A stretch of DNA of 33,446 nucleotides from Patescibacteria group bacterium (lineage in GTDB: Bacteria > Patescibacteriota > Patescibacteriia > UBA1558 > S5-K13). Numbering within the stretch: the first letter of the stretch is position 1; each line of letters opens with the position of its first letter. Below, piece by piece: positions 6,022 to 14,812 of the stretch. Below the pieces are notes generated by a model. The model did no database searches. It was given only the letters and a program-made list of their open reading frames with translations, and had not been told where the DNA came from. Made by a program: the position numbers and the translations under genes. Location of the stretch: the NCBI GenBank assembly GCA_028692545.1, contig JAQUXC010000011.1:1-33446 (forward strand), in the 5' to 3' direction.

Positions 6022-7374
6022 ATGCAATACGATTTCAACAACAAGAATACAATTCAAAGCTTTAGAAAAGAGCTAGATTCTATAATTGAGTCAGAAGATG
6101 GAATTAGAGGATATAAATTTGCTCTTTATATGCAAAAGATTTTGGATATTCCAGAGATTGGAAATACATTAAGTCAAGAATCACGGGCTCAGTATGATGA
6201 TATGATAATTACCGCTAAATTTCTAGGACTTCATAGACTTAGTGAAGAAGAATTTTTTAAATTATTGGAAGAACATTTCAATAAGATGTTTGATATAAAA
6301 TATTATAATATTTCAAGTAGAGTAGAATATTTTCTTGTGACAAATTTTTATTTTTTACCAGATAGAGATGAATTCAAAATTAAGATTAGAGATTTTTTGT
6401 TGAGCAACAAAATTTTGATATCAAAAGAGAAAATAAAAATAAATGGCGTTTTAGAGGATCAAAGTGTTCAAAATTGGTTAAAAGATTTTAGAAATAAATA
6501 TACTGAAGATGGGTTTTTGGACCCAGTTTCAATTAGTGAATATTTTACTTCAAGTGAAAATTTTAATGCTTTATCTTTAAAAGAAAAAGACGATGTAAAG
6601 TCTATTTTTGATCTTTATTCAATGCTCAAGATGAAGTCATCTGATTTAATAGGAATGGAAGAAGCAATATCTATAGAAACTCCTGATGGAGAATTGGCAG
6701 TACTGAGACATGGAGAAATAGAAAAAATCCCTAGAGAAGTATATAAATTGTATGATGAGATAAAAGATATTATGAATCCAGATATTGAAGTGAGGTCAAA
6801 AAAGGTTTTTGATGTTGATGAAGAATCAAAGTCTTTACCAAAAGAAGAAAAAAATATTGATGAAAAAAAATCTATACAGATATTATTGCAAAAATATAAA
6901 GATTTTGAAGATAAAATGAATCAATTAGATACAAAAAATCTAGAGCAATACAAAAATAATTTAGATTCTCTTTTTGGTGAATTTGAAAATTATTCGAAAG
7001 ATAAAAACAAAATTTTTTCTTTTATATTATTTTTGGTAAAGAATGGTTTGTTTAATCAGTTTTATAAATCAGTACCAGGAGTTGCCGGATTAGAATTTAA
7101 AAAATATTTATCTACAAAATTTTCTGAAAGTATTGTAGAATTTATAGTTGAGCATTATGAAAATCCAGAATCAGTAAGTTTGTTTTTACAATTTTTGTTA
7201 AACAGGTCTGGAATAAATGAAAGAGAATCAGCTTTGTTCGGAATGTATATAGCAAATATTTTCAAGAAAAATAAGCAAGAAAAATATTTTTCTATTGTGT
7301 ATGGTGATTTGAATCTTGAAAGCTTTTTATGGAGAGATGTGGTAGAGGAGGCAGGGATTGTAAAATTTAAATAG
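6022..7374 (+). CDS. hypothetical protein (450 residues)
   Basis: The product is soluble, largely helical and rich in Lys, Glu, Asp and Phe, with no signal peptide, membrane segment or recognised motif. It follows the VirB6-like gene by 12 bases and is the last gene before a strong bidirectional terminator, so it probably belongs to the same transcript. Its start ATG has no Shine-Dalgarno, like most genes here. A cytoplasmic partner of the secretion-type complex is possible from position alone; the sequence itself does not show a function. Confidence 0.75.
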   Translation: MQYDFNNKNTIQSFRKELDSIIESEDGIRGYKFALYMQKILDIPEIGNTLSQESRAQYDDMIITAKFLGLHRLSEEEFFKLLEEHFNKMFDIKYYNISSRVEYFLVTNFYFLPDRDEFKIKIRDFLLSNKILISKEKIKINGVLEDQSVQNWLKDFRNKYTEDGFLDPVSISEYFTSSENFNALSLKEKDDVKSIFDLYSMLKMKSSDLIGMEEAISIETPDGELAVLRHGEIEKIPREVYKLYDEIKDIMNPDIEVRSKKVFDVDEESKSLPKEEKNIDEKKSIQILLQKYKDFEDKMNQLDTKNLEQYKNNLDSLFGEFENYSKDKNKIFSFILFLVKNGLFNQFYKSVPGVAGLEFKKYLSTKFSESIVEFIVEHYENPESVSLFLQFLLNRSGINERESALFGMYIANIFKKNKQEKYFSIVYGDLNLESFLWRDVVEEAGIVKFK

Positions 7375-7381
7375 ATCTTAT

Positions 7382-7426
7382 AAAAAACCACCCCGGGGGT
7401 GTTTACACTCCCGGGGTGGTTTTGGT
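7382..7426. terminator. bidirectional intrinsic terminator
   Basis: A run of A at 7382-7387 precedes a long GC-rich hairpin with arms ACCACCCCGGG and CCCGGGGTGGT. The stem can extend through one G-U pair almost to the loop, and a T run follows at 7420-7423. The A run on one side and T run on the other let it work in both directions, fitting the convergent genes ending at 7374 (plus) and 7440 (minus). Confidence 0.9.
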
Positions 7427-7439
7427 TAGTTTTATGTAT

Positions 7440-7997
7440 TTAAGCTCTTTCTACATATTCTCCTGTTTCTGTATTTATCTTTATAATATCGCCATCTTTT
7501 ATAAATAAAGGGCATTTTATATTTGCACCTGTTTCTATGGTAACTTGTTTTGTAGCAGATCCAGCTGTATCGCCTTTTACTCCAGGTGGAGCAGATATTA
7601 CTTTAAATTCCATTTTTGTAGGTAAACTTACAGACACTGGTTTATCATTGAATTTTAATATTTCTACAATTGTTCCATCTTTTAAATAATCAACTTGTTC
7701 TTTCATGGATTCTATATCAAAGAAGAATTGTTCGAATGTTTCTTGATCCATAAAATAACAATTTTCATTATCTTTGTATAAAAAACTTGCTTTTTCTCTA
7801 GTTAAATTTGCTTCTTCAGCTTTGTCTCCACCACTGAATGTTTTTTCAAGCATATCACCTGTTATAAGATTTTTGAGCTTTGTTTTCAAAACTGCACCAC
7901 TCCTTGCTTGTTTGGAATGTTGAGCAGATATTATTTTATATGGTTGATCCTTAAAAGATATTATTTTGTTTAGTTTTAATTCATTGAATTCTAACAT
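7440..7997 (-). CDS. efp: elongation factor P
   Basis: EF-P binds the ribosome between the P and E sites and relieves stalling at proline stretches. The 185-residue length is normal for the family. The N-terminal KOW-like domain contains TKLKNLITG, and the C-terminal OB domain ends in the typical INTETGEYVERA. The loop that enters the peptidyl-transferase centre reads SKQARSGAV, which places Arg32 where Escherichia coli EF-P has the modified Lys34. This matches the Arg-type EF-P seen in Pseudomonas, which is rhamnosylated by EarP; neither earP nor epmA is in the window. It is transcribed alone, behind a GC-rich leader hairpin, and converges on a bidirectional terminator. Confidence 0.96.
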   Translation of the reverse strand: MLEFNELKLNKIISFKDQPYKIISAQHSKQARSGAVLKTKLKNLITGDMLEKTFSGGDKAEEANLTREKASFLYKDNENCYFMDQETFEQFFFDIESMKEQVDYLKDGTIVEILKFNDKPVSVSLPTKMEFKVISAPPGVKGDTAGSATKQVTIETGANIKCPLFIKDGDIIKINTETGEYVERA

Positions 7998-8015
7998 ATT
8001 TTTTCTTGCTCTGTC

Positions 8016-8040
8016 TGCGGCGTGCCACTATGGCGTGCGA
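8016..8040 (-). promoter_or_regulatory. GC-rich hairpin in the efp leader
   Basis: A GC-rich patch lies 20-45 bases upstream of the efp start in an otherwise A+T-rich gap. It contains GCCA-CTA-TGGC (8024-8034), which can extend through wobble pairs, and a direct repeat of GGCGTGC. It would lie in the efp 5' leader. A regulatory role is inference only. Confidence 0.35.
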
Positions 8041-8067
8041 ATGACAGGATTAATTTTAGACAATTTT

Positions 8068-8097
8068 AAATTCCTGTTTTAGGGACAGGAATTTTTG
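8068..8097. terminator. terminator after rpsR
   Basis: A perfect 10-bp hairpin has arms AAATTCCTGT (8068-8077) and ACAGGAATTT (8085-8094) and a 7-base loop. It lies just after the rpsR stop on the minus strand. The plus-strand side has the better T run, but A/T-rich flanks on both sides let it serve the rpsF-ssb-rpsR transcript. Confidence 0.6.
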
Positions 8098-8107
8098 TGA
8101 GGGTTGT

Positions 8108-8332
8108 TTATGATTTTGTATATGGTAATAAAGCCATAAACCTTGCTCTTTTTATAGCTTGGCTTAATTTTCTTTGGTGTTTTGAGCATACTCCATTTCT
8201 TTTTTTTGGTACTATTTTTGCATAGGAGCTTATGAATTTTTGTAATAATTGAATATCTCTGAAATCGATATAATCTATATCTTTGTGACAGAAATAGCAA
8301 TATTTCTTTTTGTTTATAGTTGTCTTTGTCAT
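8108..8332 (-). CDS. rpsR: ribosomal protein bS18
   Basis: This is a 74-residue component of the small subunit platform, which forms a heterodimer with bS6. The family pattern is clear in YCYFC followed by DFRDIQLLQKFIS, KIVPKKRNGVCSKHQRKLSQAIKRARFMALLPYT. Cys12, Cys15, Cys49 and His52 form a potential zinc site, so this looks like a zinc-binding form of bS18. It is the last gene of rpsF-ssb-rpsR, an order conserved in many bacteria. About 100 bases separate it from ssb, and that gap holds a GC-rich hairpin. Confidence 0.96.
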   Translation of the reverse strand: MTKTTINKKKYCYFCHKDIDYIDFRDIQLLQKFISSYAKIVPKKRNGVCSKHQRKLSQAIKRARFMALLPYTKS

Positions 8333-8377
8333 AGTTTTAAAATTCTAAAATATATAATTATTTTTTATTTTTTTCAT

Positions 8378-8425
8378 TCGTGGCGCCTGTCTTTCTTGTG
8401 GGCAGGAATTCGTCTTCGGAGGATA
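8378..8425 (-). other. GC-rich hairpin between ssb and rpsR
   Basis: This short GC-rich patch sits in an A+T-rich gap. CCTGTC and GGCAGG can pair with one wobble (about 8390-8410). Near the rpsR start the mRNA would carry this hairpin; it could be a processing or attenuation site. It shares a CATTCG-type edge and high GC with the efp leader patch, but the similarity is too short to call them one repeat. Confidence 0.3.
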
Positions 8426-8433
8426 GTTATTTA

Positions 8434-8871
8434 TTAAAATGGTATATCCTCAATATTTATTTCTTCCTCATCGTCTTGTTGACTTTGGTCTTCACTAGTT
8501 TCAGTTTTTGCTTTATTAAAATTATTGGAAGCCCCATCTCCTGATTTATTATCTAACATTATCATATTTTCGGCTATTATTTCAGTTCTATATTTTTTTA
8601 TACCATTTTGGTCTTCCCAATTTCTGGTTTGTAATCTACCTTCTAGATAAATTTTACTACCCTTTTTTAGATATTGAGTAATAATTTCTGCTAGCTTTCT
8701 CCATGCAACTATATTATGAAATTCTGTTTTTTCTTGTTTTTGTCCTTCTTGATCTTTCCATGTCATATTTGTAGCCATAGAAAATGAAACTACTGGTTGT
8801 CCTGATGGAGTTGTACGTGATTCTGGATCAGCTGTTAGTCTTCCTATTATTGTTGCTCTATTTAGATCCAT
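8434..8871 (-). CDS. ssb: single-stranded DNA-binding protein
   Basis: SSB coats single-stranded DNA during replication, repair and recombination. The 145-residue product has the OB-fold domain in roughly residues 1-107, starting MDLNRATIIGRLTADPE, with the conserved KGSKIYLEGRLQTRNW and RTEIIAENMIML. A short acidic tail follows and ends DIEDIPF-like (INIEDIPF), the tip that recruits partner proteins. It lies between rpsF and rpsR in the classic operon order, 54 bases after the rpsF stop. Confidence 0.97.
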   Translation of the reverse strand: MDLNRATIIGRLTADPESRTTPSGQPVVSFSMATNMTWKDQEGQKQEKTEFHNIVAWRKLAEIITQYLKKGSKIYLEGRLQTRNWEDQNGIKKYRTEIIAENMIMLDNKSGDGASNNFNKAKTETSEDQSQQDDEEEINIEDIPF

Positions 8872-8925
8872 ATGTTTTTTGTTCTACTTAGCTATATTAA
8901 CTAAGTTGAAATAGTTAATTATATT

Positions 8926-9510
8926 TTATATTTCTTCGTTGTTTAATATTTCATCAAGTTTTTTGTCTAGCTCATTTTGTTCTACTTTTTCTTCTTCTTT
9001 TGAAACTTTTGGCTCTTCTTTTACTGTTTTTTCAGGTATTATATCTTCCTCTTTTTTAACTTCTTCAATTTCAACTTTTTCAGCCTTTTTTTCTTTTATG
9101 GTTTCTTCCGCTCTAGGTTTAGTATTTCTTATTGTATTAGGCTTTCTGTTTTCTTTATCATTATCATTATTGGTTTTTTCTTCTAAATTTTTTGTAATAT
9201 CTAGACCACCAAGAGAAGCTGATTTTTTTATAGTCAAAAATCTTAATATATTTTGATTTAAAGATATTTCTTTTTCTAGTCCTTTTATAGTTTCTGATCC
9301 ACTATTAAATCTTATAGAATAATATACACCTTTACTCATTTTATCTATAAGATAGGTGAATTTTTTTCTTTCAAGATTTTCTTCTAATGTTATTTCTCCA
9401 TTATTTTTGATAATCAAGTTTTTAACAAAGTTTACTACTTCTGAATGTTCATTTTCAGGTAGATTTGCATTGATAATAAATGTTATTTCGTAGTGCTGTT
9501 TTTGACTCAT
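8926..9510 (-). CDS. rpsF: ribosomal protein bS6 with long charged C-terminal extension
   Basis: The first ~100 residues are a normal bS6 (start MSQKQHYEITFIINANLPE, then FTYLIDKMSKGVYYSIRFNSG and NILRFLTIKK). The family is usually about 95-135 residues, whereas this product has 194. The extra ~90 residues are low-complexity, rich in Lys, Glu, Val and Pro, and likely disordered. bS6 binds bS18 on the subunit platform. It is the first gene of rpsF-ssb-rpsR and has a promoter-like site and a palindrome upstream. No frameshift is apparent; the extension continues in frame to a TAA. Confidence 0.95.
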   Translation of the reverse strand: MSQKQHYEITFIINANLPENEHSEVVNFVKNLIIKNNGEITLEENLERKKFTYLIDKMSKGVYYSIRFNSGSETIKGLEKEISLNQNILRFLTIKKSASLGGLDITKNLEEKTNNDNDKENRKPNTIRNTKPRAEETIKEKKAEKVEIEEVKKEEDIIPEKTVKEEPKVSKEEEKVEQNELDKKLDEILNNEEI

Positions 9511-9977: not shown

Positions 9978-11544
9978 TCCAGTTGTTTTAATTATTTTGG
10001 ATGGTTGGGGAATTACTCAGCCATCAATTGGTAATGCGATATCATTATCAAAGCTTGATTATTGGAATTTATTAATAAAAAATTATCCAACTTTTTTGTT
10101 GCAAGCATCTGGAGAAGCAGTGGGTCTTCCATATGGAGAGATGGGAAATTCAGAAGTGGGACATCTTACCATAGGTTCTGGTCAAATTGTTTTACAAAGT
10201 TTAAATAGAATAAATAGGGAAGTATTAAATGGTGGTTTTTTTAAAAATGAGATTTTATTAAAGACAATGAGTCATGTAAAAAATAGTAATTCTTCACTTC
10301 ATATAATAGGTATGATAGGTACTGGTGGAGTACATTCACATCAGGCTCATTTAGAAGCTCTTATTAAAATGGCTTCAGATAGTAATTTAGAAAGAGTATA
10401 TCTGCATTTGTTTTTGGATGGTAGAGATACGGCAAAAAATAAAGGTTTAGAATTTATAAGAGAACTGGAGAAGACTATTAGATTGTATAATTGTGGTCAA
10501 ATAACTACTTTGTCTGGAAGATTCTATGGAATGGATAGAAATAATAATTGGAATAGAATAAAGTCAAGTTATGATGCAATATTTCACGCTCAAGCAAAAG
10601 AATATTACAATGATCCTATACTTGCTATTCAGAGTTCTTATGCAAAAAATATATTTGATGAAGAATTTAACCCTGTTGTTATAGGTGACAAAGAATCACC
10701 TATTAAGGTTATGGACAATGATGCAATAATATTTTTTAATTTTAGGGCTGATAGAGCAAGACAACTTACTCAAGCAATGTCATTGGATGATTTTTTAGAA
10801 TTTGACAGAGGTGATAGGCCAAAGAATGTGTTTATAAGCACATTTACAGAGTATAAATCAGATTTTCCTGTAGAAGTTGCTTTTAGAAGAAAGGACATAA
10901 ATGATACATTGTGTGAGGTTATCAGTTCTAATAATTTATCTCAGTTACATATTGCAGAAACAGAAAAATATGCTCACGTTACATTTTTTTTTAATGGATT
11001 AAAAGAAGAAAAATTAAAGGGTGAAAATAGAATACTTATTCCTTCTCCAAATGTTGAAACATATGATATGAAACCAGAGATGTCATCACAGGAAATAACT
11101 CAAAATCTTATAAATAGTATAAATAAGAAAGAATTTGATTTTTCCGTTGTAAATTTTGCAAATGCAGATATGGTAGGACATACTGGAAATTTGAGTGCAG
11201 CAAGACAAGCTGTTTTGGAAATAGATAGAAGTTTGTCAAAAATAATACCAGAAGTACTTAGTCAAAATGGCACTGTGTTTGTAACAGCAGATCATGGTAA
11301 TGTAGAAGAGGTAGTGAATTTAAAGACTGGGGAAATTGACAAAGAACATAGTAATTTTCCCGTTCCTTTTATTACTATAAACAATAAAACACATGGCAAG
11401 GGTTATAATCTTAATAATGATATTTTGTATAAACAAGATATTTCTGGAGTATTATCAGATATAGCCCCAACTGTACTTGCAAGATTCAAATTGCGCCCTA
11501 GTTCCAATATGAAGGGGATAGATTTAGTTAGGGGTATATTATAA
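9967..11544 (+). CDS. gpmI: 2,3-bisphosphoglycerate-independent phosphoglycerate mutase
   Basis: The enzyme interconverts 3- and 2-phosphoglycerate in lower glycolysis and uses two Mn2+ ions. The 525-residue length is normal. LDGWG at 11-15 gives the first metal-binding Asp, and GNSEVGH at 60-66 carries the catalytic Ser62. LFLDGRDT, NFRADRARQ, NFANADMVGHTG and VTADHGN are the other conserved metal and substrate motifs. It overlaps the small upstream gene by 11 bases and is followed 18 bases later by a class I aldolase, so both act in glycolysis or gluconeogenesis from one transcript. Confidence 0.97.
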   Translation: MTTNPVVLIILDGWGITQPSIGNAISLSKLDYWNLLIKNYPTFLLQASGEAVGLPYGEMGNSEVGHLTIGSGQIVLQSLNRINREVLNGGFFKNEILLKTMSHVKNSNSSLHIIGMIGTGGVHSHQAHLEALIKMASDSNLERVYLHLFLDGRDTAKNKGLEFIRELEKTIRLYNCGQITTLSGRFYGMDRNNNWNRIKSSYDAIFHAQAKEYYNDPILAIQSSYAKNIFDEEFNPVVIGDKESPIKVMDNDAIIFFNFRADRARQLTQAMSLDDFLEFDRGDRPKNVFISTFTEYKSDFPVEVAFRRKDINDTLCEVISSNNLSQLHIAETEKYAHVTFFFNGLKEEKLKGENRILIPSPNVETYDMKPEMSSQEITQNLINSINKKEFDFSVVNFANADMVGHTGNLSAARQAVLEIDRSLSKIIPEVLSQNGTVFVTADHGNVEEVVNLKTGEIDKEHSNFPVPFITINNKTHGKGYNLNNDILYKQDISGVLSDIAPTVLARFKLRPSSNMKGIDLVRGIL

Positions 11545-11562
11545 AAAATAACATAACTTTGT

Positions 11563-12510
11563 ATGTACGACAGAGTAAAAAATAAAATGCAAAACAAAAA
11601 TATGAAAAAAAAAGTTTTAAAAAAAATAACAAGTAGAGACGTACTAATACCATTAGATGTTCCTATTTTAAAAAGAAAAGAATATGTTAATAATTATTTA
11701 AAAATAACAAGAAATAGTGGAAGACTTATGCTTTTTGCAGGTGATCAAAAAATAGAGCATTTAAATGATGATTTTTATGGAGAAAATATTAGTGATGAAG
11801 ATGCTAGTCCAGAACACTTATTCAGGATTGCATCAAAGGCAAAAATAGGAGTTTTTGCAACTCAGCTTGGTCTTATAGCAAGATACGGAATGGATTATAA
11901 AAATATTCCTTATCTTGTTAAATTAAATGGTAAGAGTAATCTGGTAAGAAAAGAACAAGAAGATCCAATAAGTAGACAGTTTACAGAGCTAAAAGATGTT
12001 GTAGAATTTAAAAGACAAAACAAATTAAACATTTTGGGTGTTGGTTATACAATATATTTGGGAAGTGAATATGAAGCAGAAATGCTTGTAGAAGCATCTA
12101 GTATTATAAACGATGCCCACCAAGAGGGTCTTGTAGTAGTTTTATGGATTTATCCAAGGGGTAAAGCGATAAAGGTAGAAAAAGATGTTCATCTTATAGC
12201 AGGGGCAACTGGTGTTGCATCATGTCTTGGTGCTGATTTTGTAAAAGTAATATATCCTGATTTAGAAGGAGAGCCAAGCCCTGAAATGATAAAAGAAATA
12301 ATTAGCGCTTCTGGTAGAACAAAGGTTGTTTTTTCTGGGGGTGAGTCTATGAGTAGAGAATTGTTTTTGAAAAGACTTATTTATCAATTGGAAAATGGTG
12401 CTATGGGGGCTGCTATTGGTAGAAATATTCATCAAAAGAGTTTAAAAGATGCAGTGGAAATATGTAATGATGTTTATTCTATTATTGTAGAGGGCAAAAC
12501 CACATTTTAG
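11563..12510 (+). CDS. fbaB: class I fructose-bisphosphate aldolase (FbaB/DeoC type)
   Basis: This is an archaeal/FbaB-type Schiff-base aldolase that cleaves or forms fructose 1,6-bisphosphate. GRLMLFAGDQKIEHLNDDF near residues 53-71 is the N-terminal signature. GADFVKVIYPD supplies the likely Schiff-base Lys (residue 228), and VVFSGGES binds phosphate. Three in-frame ATG codons (11563, 11587, 11602) are possible starts; none has a Shine-Dalgarno, and the family core begins well after them, so the exact N-terminus is open. It follows gpmI by 18 bases. Confidence 0.9.
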   Translation: MYDRVKNKMQNKNMKKKVLKKITSRDVLIPLDVPILKRKEYVNNYLKITRNSGRLMLFAGDQKIEHLNDDFYGENISDEDASPEHLFRIASKAKIGVFATQLGLIARYGMDYKNIPYLVKLNGKSNLVRKEQEDPISRQFTELKDVVEFKRQNKLNILGVGYTIYLGSEYEAEMLVEASSIINDAHQEGLVVVLWIYPRGKAIKVEKDVHLIAGATGVASCLGADFVKVIYPDLEGEPSPEMIKEIISASGRTKVVFSGGESMSRELFLKRLIYQLENGAMGAAIGRNIHQKSLKDAVEICNDVYSIIVEGKTTF

Positions 12511-12511
12511 C

Positions 12512-12554
12512 TTTACATCTTCATGGGGGGGGGTGATAAAATATATTATATAAT
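12512..12554 (+). promoter_or_regulatory. candidate promoter with a G9 tract in its spacer
   Basis: TTTACA (12512-12517) is separated by exactly 17 bases from GATAAA (12535-12540), and nine consecutive G (12525-12533) lie inside the spacer. A perfect TATAAT also occurs at 12549-12554, but without a -35 at normal distance. The site precedes a secreted surface protein gene. Confidence 0.4.
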
Positions 12555-12613
12555 AATATACATCACAATTTATATAAATATTAATAAAATCATTAATTAA
12601 TTTTTAAACATTT

Positions 12614-13666
12614 ATGGTTAAAGCAAAACAATTAATCAAAACAAATATTTCATTTTTTGTATTTATTTTATCTTTTTTATTGGCAAATCAATCATTTGCA
12701 TCTGTTAATTTCGGATCAATAGATAATACAAACAAATATGCATACAATGAAAATACTGGATGGATAAATTTTAAAGATGCAAATAGTGATATCTATATAT
12801 CAGATACACAGCTTACTGGATATGCATATAGTGAAAATACAGGATGGATATCACTAAATTGTTCTAATACTAATACATGTAATGATAATAATTACAAAGT
12901 ATCAAATACAGAAAGTGGAGTATTAGGCGGTTATGCGTATAGTGAAAATGCAGGATGGATAAATTTTACAGGAGTTACAATAAACACAAATGGTGAATTT
13001 ACTGGCTATGCATATGGAGAGAATATTGGATATATATCAATGAATTGTTTAAATACTGATACATGTGATGATAATAATTATAAAGTATCAACTGACTGGA
13101 TTCCAAAATCAGTAAGACCATCATCAGGATCACTGGGTGGAGGATGGAGTAACAATACAAACAATAACAACAATCAGAATAATAATGATAATGAAAATAA
13201 TAACAATGAAGAACAAAATAATAATGATAATGAAGAAAACAATAATAATGAAGAAGATAACACTAACAATAATGAAGTAAATAAGGTATGGAAAACTGGT
13301 AAGTGGGTAAAAACAGAGGATAGTAGTACGGTCTACTTTGTAGATACTGACAATATCAGACATTCATATGTAAATGAAAAAATATGGTATTCGTACTTTA
13401 ATGATGACTTTTCATTTGTTAGTACAATAACTAAAGAAGAACTAGCTACTTATACACTAGGAAAGAATGTTCCATACAATGTAGGAATACTATTTAAAAT
13501 ACCAACTGTTCCAAAAGTATATCTAGTAGGAAGTAACGGAACTATACGATGGATAAAGACAGAAGAAAAAGCAATAGAGTTATATGGAAAAGATTGGAAT
13601 AAGCTAGTTCATGATCTACCAGATGAATTGTTTGGAGATTATACTGAAGGAACATCAATAGAGTAA
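12614..13666 (+). CDS. secreted surface protein with GYAYSENTGW repeats
   Basis: Residues 1-30 are a signal peptide (basic start, hydrophobic core, likely cut after NQSFA). Four repeats follow (about 35-170), each built on (G/K)YAY-x-EN-x-G(W/Y)I; two end in a Cys-containing NC...TC(N/D)DNNYKVS unit. Residues about 180-220 are a low-complexity Asn/Glu linker. The rest resembles tandem surface domains common in CPR proteins, with the pattern VY-LV-GSNGTIRWI-TEE-A and a closing DY-EGTSI. The same type of domain is seen in the L,D-transpeptidase at 21837-23033, suggesting a shared place in the cell envelope. No membrane anchor is visible at the C-terminus. Confidence 0.8.
   Translation: MVKAKQLIKTNISFFVFILSFLLANQSFASVNFGSIDNTNKYAYNENTGWINFKDANSDIYISDTQLTGYAYSENTGWISLNCSNTNTCNDNNYKVSNTESGVLGGYAYSENAGWINFTGVTINTNGEFTGYAYGENIGYISMNCLNTDTCDDNNYKVSTDWIPKSVRPSSGSLGGGWSNNTNNNNNQNNNDNENNNNEEQNNNDNEENNNNEEDNTNNNEVNKVWKTGKWVKTEDSSTVYFVDTDNIRHSYVNEKIWYSYFNDDFSFVSTITKEELATYTLGKNVPYNVGILFKIPTVPKVYLVGSNGTIRWIKTEEKAIELYGKDWNKLVHDLPDELFGDYTEGTSIE
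13149..13283 (+). repeat. low-complexity Asn/Glu codon repeat
   Basis: AAT/AAC/GAA triplet-rich tract encodes the N/E linker of the surface protein. Its repetitive triplets could change length by slippage without breaking the frame. Confidence 0.6.
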
Positions 13667-13792: not shown

Positions 13793-14647
13793 ATGAAAAA
13801 AATCATATCTAATGGGTTGAAAACAAAACAAATATTAAAAAACATTTCATTTGCAGTACTAGTAATGCTTATCACATTTAGTATTACAAAAGCAGGAGAC
13901 CTGTTTCCAGCAGGAACATCAGTATCATCTACATTCTATACATTAGGAGATATTTACACTAAATTAACAGATAACACAAGTAGTGCAGACGAAGGAGATC
14001 ATGATCTTACATCATCAGCCACACCAGCATCTACATTTCACACACTAAAAGAGATATATGAAGCAATACCAGATATTGATTCAAGTAAGATACTATATGG
14101 TACAAGATATATGGGGGTAGGTGGTACTGCATATCCATCACAACCACTAAAAACAGGTCAGACAAAATGTTATGATCCAAGTAGTGCTACGGGAGATGAA
14201 ATTCCTTGTTCTGGCACAGGTCAAGACGGTGAATATCAAATAGGTCAAGCAATGAGCTATACCACAACAACTAATACAGTATTAGATAATTCAACAGGTC
14301 TAATGTGGAAGAAATGCAGTGAAGGATTAAGTGGTAATAATTGTGAAACTGGTACTGCTACAACACATACTTTTGCTCAGGCAATTACTATATGTGAAAA
14401 TGACGAAACTGATGGATATACGGATTGGAGATTACCAAACATAAAAGAATTATTAACATTAGTAGATTTTGGTAAATCAAACCCAGCCATTGATATAACC
14501 GCTTTTCCAGCAACAGTCAGTGAGTACTATTGGTCATCTACTACATATCTTGATAGTCCGCGCATCGCTTGGAGCGTCTATTTCTATGATGGCGGCACCG
14601 GCAACGGCGGTAAGGGTAATGAGGGCTATGTTCGTTGCACCCGATGA
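13793..14647 (+). CDS. secreted DUF1566 (Lcl-type) protein, likely diversity-generating retroelement target
   Basis: A signal peptide covers about residues 1-35 (ends near ITKAG). Two short repeats follow, with the pattern STF-TL-(D/E)IY, near residues 45-90. Residues about 160-284 form a DUF1566/Lcl-type domain: VLDNSTGLMWKKC, FAQAITICEN, DWRLPNIKELLTLVD, YYWSSTTY, and the closing GYVRCTR. DUF1566 domains have a C-type-lectin-like fold that displays variable residues and are known targets of diversity-generating retroelements. The last ~95 bases are far richer in G+C than the rest, with codons that fit NNY substitutions of AAY. It is the only recognised gene in the window ending in TGA. No reverse transcriptase or template repeat is seen in the window. 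A surface-exposed ligand-binding protein is the likely role. Confidence 0.85.
   Translation: MKKIISNGLKTKQILKNISFAVLVMLITFSITKAGDLFPAGTSVSSTFYTLGDIYTKLTDNTSSADEGDHDLTSSATPASTFHTLKEIYEAIPDIDSSKILYGTRYMGVGGTAYPSQPLKTGQTKCYDPSSATGDEIPCSGTGQDGEYQIGQAMSYTTTTNTVLDNSTGLMWKKCSEGLSGNNCETGTATTHTFAQAITICENDETDGYTDWRLPNIKELLTLVDFGKSNPAIDITAFPATVSEYYWSSTTYLDSPRIAWSVYFYDGGTGNGGKGNEGYVRCTR
14552..14647 (+). other. putative DGR variable region
   Basis: From GAT AGT CCG to the stop, the sequence switches to high GC. Codons at the probable display positions are AGT, CGC, ATC, AGC, TAT, GGC, GGC, GGC, GGT and GGT, all with C or T in third place, as expected if AAC or AAT codons in a template were changed at A. 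The end (GGCTATGTTCGTTGCACC) would be the constant initiation-of-homing side. The assignment rests on pattern; no template copy is in the window. Confidence 0.65.
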
Positions 14648-14744
14648 ATCCCGTGAGATAGTCTTATTAATATCGCCATTTTTCGTTTAGATTCATATGG
14701 TATTAAAATATCAATACATCGATAATTCGTGTATCTCACGGGAT
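14648..14744. repeat. 13-bp inverted repeat directly after the variable region
   Basis: ATCCCGTGAGATA (14648-14660) and TATCTCACGGGAT (14732-14744) are perfect inverted copies with a 71-base loop. The first arm begins at the end of the target gene, where retroelement targets often carry hairpin or cruciform DNA, although those usually have short loops. It could also be a terminator-like fold. Confidence 0.5.
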
Positions 14745-14759
14745 GAATTCCCTGAATTT

Positions 14760-14784
14760 TCCCATCCCGCTAAGCGGGATGGGA
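14760..14784. repeat. perfect 11-bp hairpin with TAA loop
   Basis: TCCCATCCCGC and GCGGGATGGGA flank a 3-base loop. No T run follows, so a simple terminator is doubtful. Its position about 115 bases after the target gene and its stem length are reminiscent of the cruciform that aids retrohoming in DGRs. Confidence 0.6.
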
Positions 14785-14812
14785 TTGATTATCTGATTAT
14801 TTGATTATTTTA

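Follow-up and report, generated by a model that had tools for sequence, protein, structure and literature searches.

A C-type-lectin gene in a patescibacterial genome as a probable orphan target of a diversity-generating retroelement

Targets of diversity-generating retroelements (DGRs) that are orphaned, or remote from their reverse transcriptase (RT), are already described in Treponema denticola (PMC4891356), in nanoarchaea (PMC4372165) and in Thiohalocapsa (PMC10907252). The gene discussed here shares features with all three. T. denticola carries several dispersed C-type-lectin target genes of the TvpA type per genome, and orphans persist there without an RT; in T. denticola SP32 a remote target corresponds not to the genome's own template but to another DGR type that has been lost. 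Both situations appear to recur here, whereas two points differ: the lost template of T. denticola is known from sister isolates and none was found here in any genome searched, and the lectin family is FGE-sulfatase there and Lcl_C here (PMC4891356). Similarly, in the partial or fossil DGRs of the DUSEL4 Nanoarchaeota a target gene shows adenine-type variation and has no RT close by; the lineage consists of symbionts with reduced genomes and also has intact DGRs at other loci, as in the present case. The authors leave open whether those loci are fossil or remote, and the archaeal targets belong to no recognised family, while here the family and the fold are known and mismatches to a template could be counted (PMC4372165). 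The genome of Thiohalocapsa PB-PSB1 likewise combines complete loci with degenerate and remote ones; its targets are modular and duplicated, and MITE-like inverted repeats lie at the DGR loci. In several of its remote variable regions (VRs) all non-adenine sites agree with a distant template, so that these are true trans targets; the VR studied here shows no such agreement (PMC10907252). As for the protein family, the preliminary description of this DNA had noted that DUF1566 and C-type-lectin folds are DGR targets; DUF1566 (Lcl_C) is reported to be the Pfam domain found most often in such targets, with the VR at the C-terminus as here; nothing fundamental sets our member apart, save that it has no template and no RT in cis (PMC6642488).

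The window, that is, the whole stretch of 33,446 nucleotides that was analysed, makes up all of contig C11 in a genome of 1.07 Mb that is 99.4% complete and assembled into 23 contigs. CPR bacteria have tiny genomes and are often host-dependent, and their DGR targets are candidate host-contact proteins. Judged from its sequence, the N-terminal hydrophobic segment of the window's target protein looks typical of a signal peptide, and residues 161-284 match Pfam Lcl_C (PF07603, 1.1e-34). Modelled from an alignment with 22 homologues, this domain adopts a confident C-type-lectin fold (pLDDT 94.6), with the C-terminal domain of Legionella Lcl (8q4e, E 6.2e-5) as top PDB match and other C-type lectins next; the full-length model, built on three sequences only, is useless (pLDDT 39). 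By domain match and fold the gene thus encodes a C-type lectin, and the VR lies at its 3' end, a position sought, together with that in Ig-like genes, in a DGR target. The target family occupies four loci in the genome, on contigs C1, C6, C11 and C16, each behind a copy of a partner gene that is full at C1 and in the window and partial at C6 and C16. The closest homologue of the window target found in a scan of genome contigs, at locus L062 of a Paceibacterota genome, is likewise preceded by a partner homologue; the window's partner is 80-83% identical to the C1 paralogue and 46% to that of L062. No RT, Avd or template (TR) is found within the window; the preliminary description had likewise seen no template or RT near the gene. 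The features are listed in Table 1.

Table 1. Features of the target locus in the window (contig C11) and of the complete DGR on contig C1 (locus L016, 6270-9343)
Feature	Contig	Position	Strand	Description
Partner gene	C11	12614-13666	+	350 aa; YAYSENTGWIxF repeats, Asn-rich linker
Target gene	C11	13793-14647	+	284 aa; N-terminal hydrophobic segment, conserved N-terminal half, C-terminal Lcl_C (DUF1566) C-type-lectin domain
DGR-type VR	C11	14523-14644	+	about 40 codons with AAY-derived codon pattern; 5' edge uncertain because no template was found
MITE-like element	C11	14644-14748	.	ATGAAT direct repeats (14644-14649, 14743-14748) around 93 bp
TIRs of the MITE-like element	C11	14650-14660, 14732-14742		CCCGTGAGATA and TATCTCACGGG; TIR 11-13 bp
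Hairpin	C11	14760-14784	+	perfect, 11-bp stem, 3-nt loop, T-rich tail after it; dispersed GCGGGAT palindrome kind
Target	C1	6270-7334
Avd	C1	7421-7783		PHROG 'Avd protein of DGR' 6.3e-20; PF22296 above cut-off
Template (TR)	C1	~7945-8090	+
RT	C1	8093-9343	-	IGNLTSQ and YVDD motifs

The end of the target gene had been described as a DGR-type VR in a C-type-lectin surface protein, placed at 14552-14784. Lectin match, fold and codon composition bear out the nature of the region, and its boundaries are to be shifted: the VR probably starts slightly further upstream and ends at the stop codon, and 14648-14784 is a separate feature. The reported switch to high GC is present, from about 0.35 to 0.54 across 14550-14649, and so are the GYVRCTR protein end and the codons ending in C or T at display positions. 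At the columns where the template reads AAY, every window codon ends in C or T, 11 of 11 against the C1 template and 12 of 12 against that of L062. GC3 is 0.15 in the 200 codons upstream and 0.50 in the VR (last 38-40 codons); the other genes of the window average 16.8% GC3 and 5.5% C-ending codons. Differences between the window and C16 VRs are distributed over the three codon positions as 13/15/6, compared with 16/8/18 in the adjacent upstream part of the Lcl_C domain. The columns and the VR boundary were picked after the alignments had been inspected, so that the following p-values are descriptive: C-ending codons rise from 0.09 in the 200 upstream codons to 0.37 in the VR (p=2.8e-5); glycine is encoded by GGC at five of seven VR codons and at 23 of 485 in the other window genes (p=4.6e-6); the rate of first- and second-position differences from C16 is raised in the VR relative to upstream (p=2e-4) and that of third-position differences is not; and amino-acid differences from C16 fall on 11 of 12 AAY columns and on 8 of 26 other columns of the L062 template (p=0.0005). 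Y-ending codons at AAY columns and a non-synonymous excess at the same columns, the two marks of adenine mutagenesis, thus coincide in this VR, and we consider it highly probable that a DGR wrote it at some time.

It is quite improbable that the gene encodes an ordinary Lcl_C adhesin and never served as a DGR target, its variable end being due to diversifying selection or to import of a GC-rich domain end. Lcl_C proteins with no DGR in reach do have similar WSS...AW.V.F..G...VR ends, L090 even with AWSVYFYDGG, and some show a composition rise; yet the composition switch of the window gene does not extend beyond the VR edge and resembles that of verified targets, both in its own genome and at L062, and both the C/T endings and the amino-acid differences track the AAY columns of two independent templates. 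The comparison with homologues shows how far the composition can be trusted. Verified DGR targets (C1, L062, L064, L076) have a GC3 rise of 0.12-0.35, with the window VR at 0.34, and the rise is about zero in the homologues L078, L079, L083 and L095, which have no template in reach. GC3 also rises at L065, L067, L072 and L077, where the fetched DNA holds no template; either these are targets on short contigs, orphaned or remote, or the composition signal may be less specific than it appears. The GC3 and codon fingerprint is therefore strong and not unique to verified targets, because some template-less Lcl_C homologues show the rise too. With this reservation, the rise in GC3 and in C/T-ending codons may aid in finding bare targets; surveys anchored on the RT state themselves that they miss these (PMC8144416). 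Three Lcl_C genes from other phyla, at L072 7176-7625, L077 1577-2026 and L065 3035-3484, have a strong terminal composition rise and no template in the fetched DNA, and are candidate remote or orphan targets. Directly past the L076 DGR lies a second small Lcl_C gene (7176-7595) with the same composition rise, in which AWSVYFYDGG is the same ten residues as in the window VR.

At L062 the gene order is partner, target, Avd, TR and RT, and its TR and VR differ at no non-adenine position and at 19 adenines within a 70-nt stretch. This homologue has an intact TR and RT, and the protein type of the window is therefore a real DGR target where the cassette is intact. L062 also holds a second RT gene (8014-9069) with an LGNLTSQ motif directly upstream of the partner gene, the DGR's own RT being at 11368-12756. 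The template is open in frame with the RT reading frame over 11368-11650, and the template RNA may overlap it.

Within the window's own genome a complete DGR is found on contig C1, with target, Avd, TR and RT at one locus. Its template differs from its own VR at 17 of 40 adenines and at none of 80 other positions, which puts 17 of 17 differences at template A. The RT stands in inverted orientation, a known cassette pattern (G5, PMC6642488), and the Avd occurs once in the genome. The window gene had been proposed as a remote target served in trans by an RT elsewhere, and a DGR-type RT with its accessory Avd does exist outside the window, on C1. Trans service does not follow from it: the C1 template, the best in the genome for this VR, has 29 of 80 non-adenine mismatches to the window VR and 33 of 80 to the C16 VR, spread along the region. 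An RT elsewhere in a genome is insufficient for calling a trans target; a template match at non-adenine sites is required and is absent here. As source of the window VR, the C1 template is rejected on these 29 mismatches. That the C1 DGR itself treats the window gene as a remote target is barely credible, even if both lie in the same genome and belong to the same protein family and the VR can be aligned with the C1 template codon by codon, for the mismatches run along the VR to its 3' end where the C1 VR has none, and one survey gives about 2.6% non-adenine substitutions in TR-VR pairs having any (PMC6642488). From the alignments, the C1 template appears dedicated to its own adjacent target.

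The remaining loci show other states of the cassette. At C6 the VR is kept, the target is frameshifted, only the first bases of avd follow the target, and TR and RT are absent; this cassette has decayed, with RT and TR visibly lost. The window and C16 carry bare targets of a second type, ending in YVRC and not RVRC. For one target family the genome thus presents a turnover series with one intact cassette, one decaying and two bare targets. In the sister genome G001, which has the second VR type, neither a template nor an RT of the C1 kind (E<=1e-20) was found. At L059 1-130 of G001, the partner gene preceding the sister target is cut by an apparent integrase-type transposase C-terminal end (YNEERLHLGINLKTPSQM).

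It had also been suggested to look through the whole genome for an A-rich copy of the VR beside an RT. The DGR-type RT was found and the matching copy was not: blastn with a reconstructed template returned the two VRs (window and C16) and, weakly, the C1 template only, and degenerate patterns of 108 nt and of the 3' 72 nt (A or the VR base, three mismatches) matched only the two VRs in the genome. IMG/VR contained no close relatives. Another RT on contig C8 was considered as a second DGR RT and set aside; QGVPLIALFTN and GDD replace IGNLTSQ and YVDD, and Avd and VR were not seen adjoining. This locus (L018 323-4440; C8, 1-4.4 kb) has a generic RT model, Cas1_IIIb and UG26 as best PADLOC matches. 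Downstream of the RT come a divergent ABC-transporter-like and a phospholipase-D-like protein, and the group may be an unusual RT operon.

Since the C1 template appears dedicated to its own target and none other was found in the assembly, the most likely reading, which we regard as fairly probable, is that the window gene and the sister gene on C16 are orphan (fossil) targets whose own template is lost or unassembled. An unassembled template is possible because the genome lies in 23 contigs and the C6 and C16 cassettes, two of the four, are at contig ends. The confinement of the composition switch to the VR supports an orphan target; the high GC3 of the VR, undecayed towards the genome's 0.17, hints at recent rewriting and speaks against it. 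Under the orphan interpretation, a DGR RT would have copied a template RNA, misincorporating at its adenines, and the resulting cDNA would have replaced the 3' end of the target gene (mutagenic retrohoming), giving the VR of 13793-14647. Such retrohoming would have introduced variation into the ligand face of this secreted C-type lectin, which is presumably displayed at the surface. The cassette of the window and C16 targets would then have lost its template, and the targets would now be frozen or altered by ordinary mutation alone.

The undecayed composition could instead mean that the VR is still being rewritten, by a second template that sits in a gap of the assembly, on a mobile element or in further strains of the population, with the C1 RT and Avd acting in trans. 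The genome has both proteins, the contig ends at C6 and C16 leave room for such a template, and examples of trans service and of structural variants within populations have been documented elsewhere (PMC10907252). We nevertheless think an active remote target unlikely, though the least unlikely of the alternatives, given a genome 99.4% complete in which blastn and both three-mismatch patterns found no template, and the same VR type in G001 without an RT of the C1 kind. More speculative still, and rather improbable, is that one DGR family has several template lineages, some unlinked to an RT, with one RT and Avd serving dispersed targets that have private templates, or that frozen VRs form a standing adhesin repertoire after the templates were discarded.

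The stretch 14638-14800, which spans the stop codon, folds better than 200 of 200 shuffles (z=-4.5), and Rfam gave no credible match to the structure. As reported, a 13-bp inverted repeat starts at the stop (arms 14648-14660 and 14732-14744, 71 bases between them) and a perfect 11-bp hairpin follows. A MITE-like insertion, with the repeat as its two ends, explains it better than a DGR feature does. The element sits at the same place at C16 and at C6, where it is flanked by ATTAAT on both sides, and is absent at C1; C6 minus the element and one repeat copy aligns gap-free with the C1 junction, which represents the empty site. In the relative G004, elements with CGTGAGATA ends lie at two intergenic loci unrelated to DGRs. 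TIRs, direct repeats, an empty site, copies elsewhere (three here, two related ones in G004) and non-coding content are accordingly all found. On the simplest reading, a MITE-like element would have inserted and then travelled along when the locus was duplicated, and the inverted repeat is probably not a homing hairpin.

Phage-type DGRs have a short hairpin or cruciform 4-34 bp downstream of the VR, and the known phage stems are 7-10 bp long with 4-nt GRNA loops. We judge it improbable that 14648-14744 is such a target-recognition hairpin and not a MITE. The repeat begins directly past the VR at three of the four targets, and BPP-1 does require a hairpin or cruciform downstream of its VR (PMC3240598); but the active C1 target lacks the repeat and its junction matches C6 once the element is removed, the arms are 71 bases apart, and the same ends recur at the non-DGR loci of G004. 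The compact hairpin about 115 bp downstream of the VR is a probable transcription terminator, judging from its stem and T-rich tail, and weaker copies of its GCGGGAT palindrome occur on C4, C19 and C23. The two G004 loci, L103 3280-3386 and L104 310-415, hold intergenic MITE-like elements with GTATACCCCGTGAGATA ends that are related to the window element.
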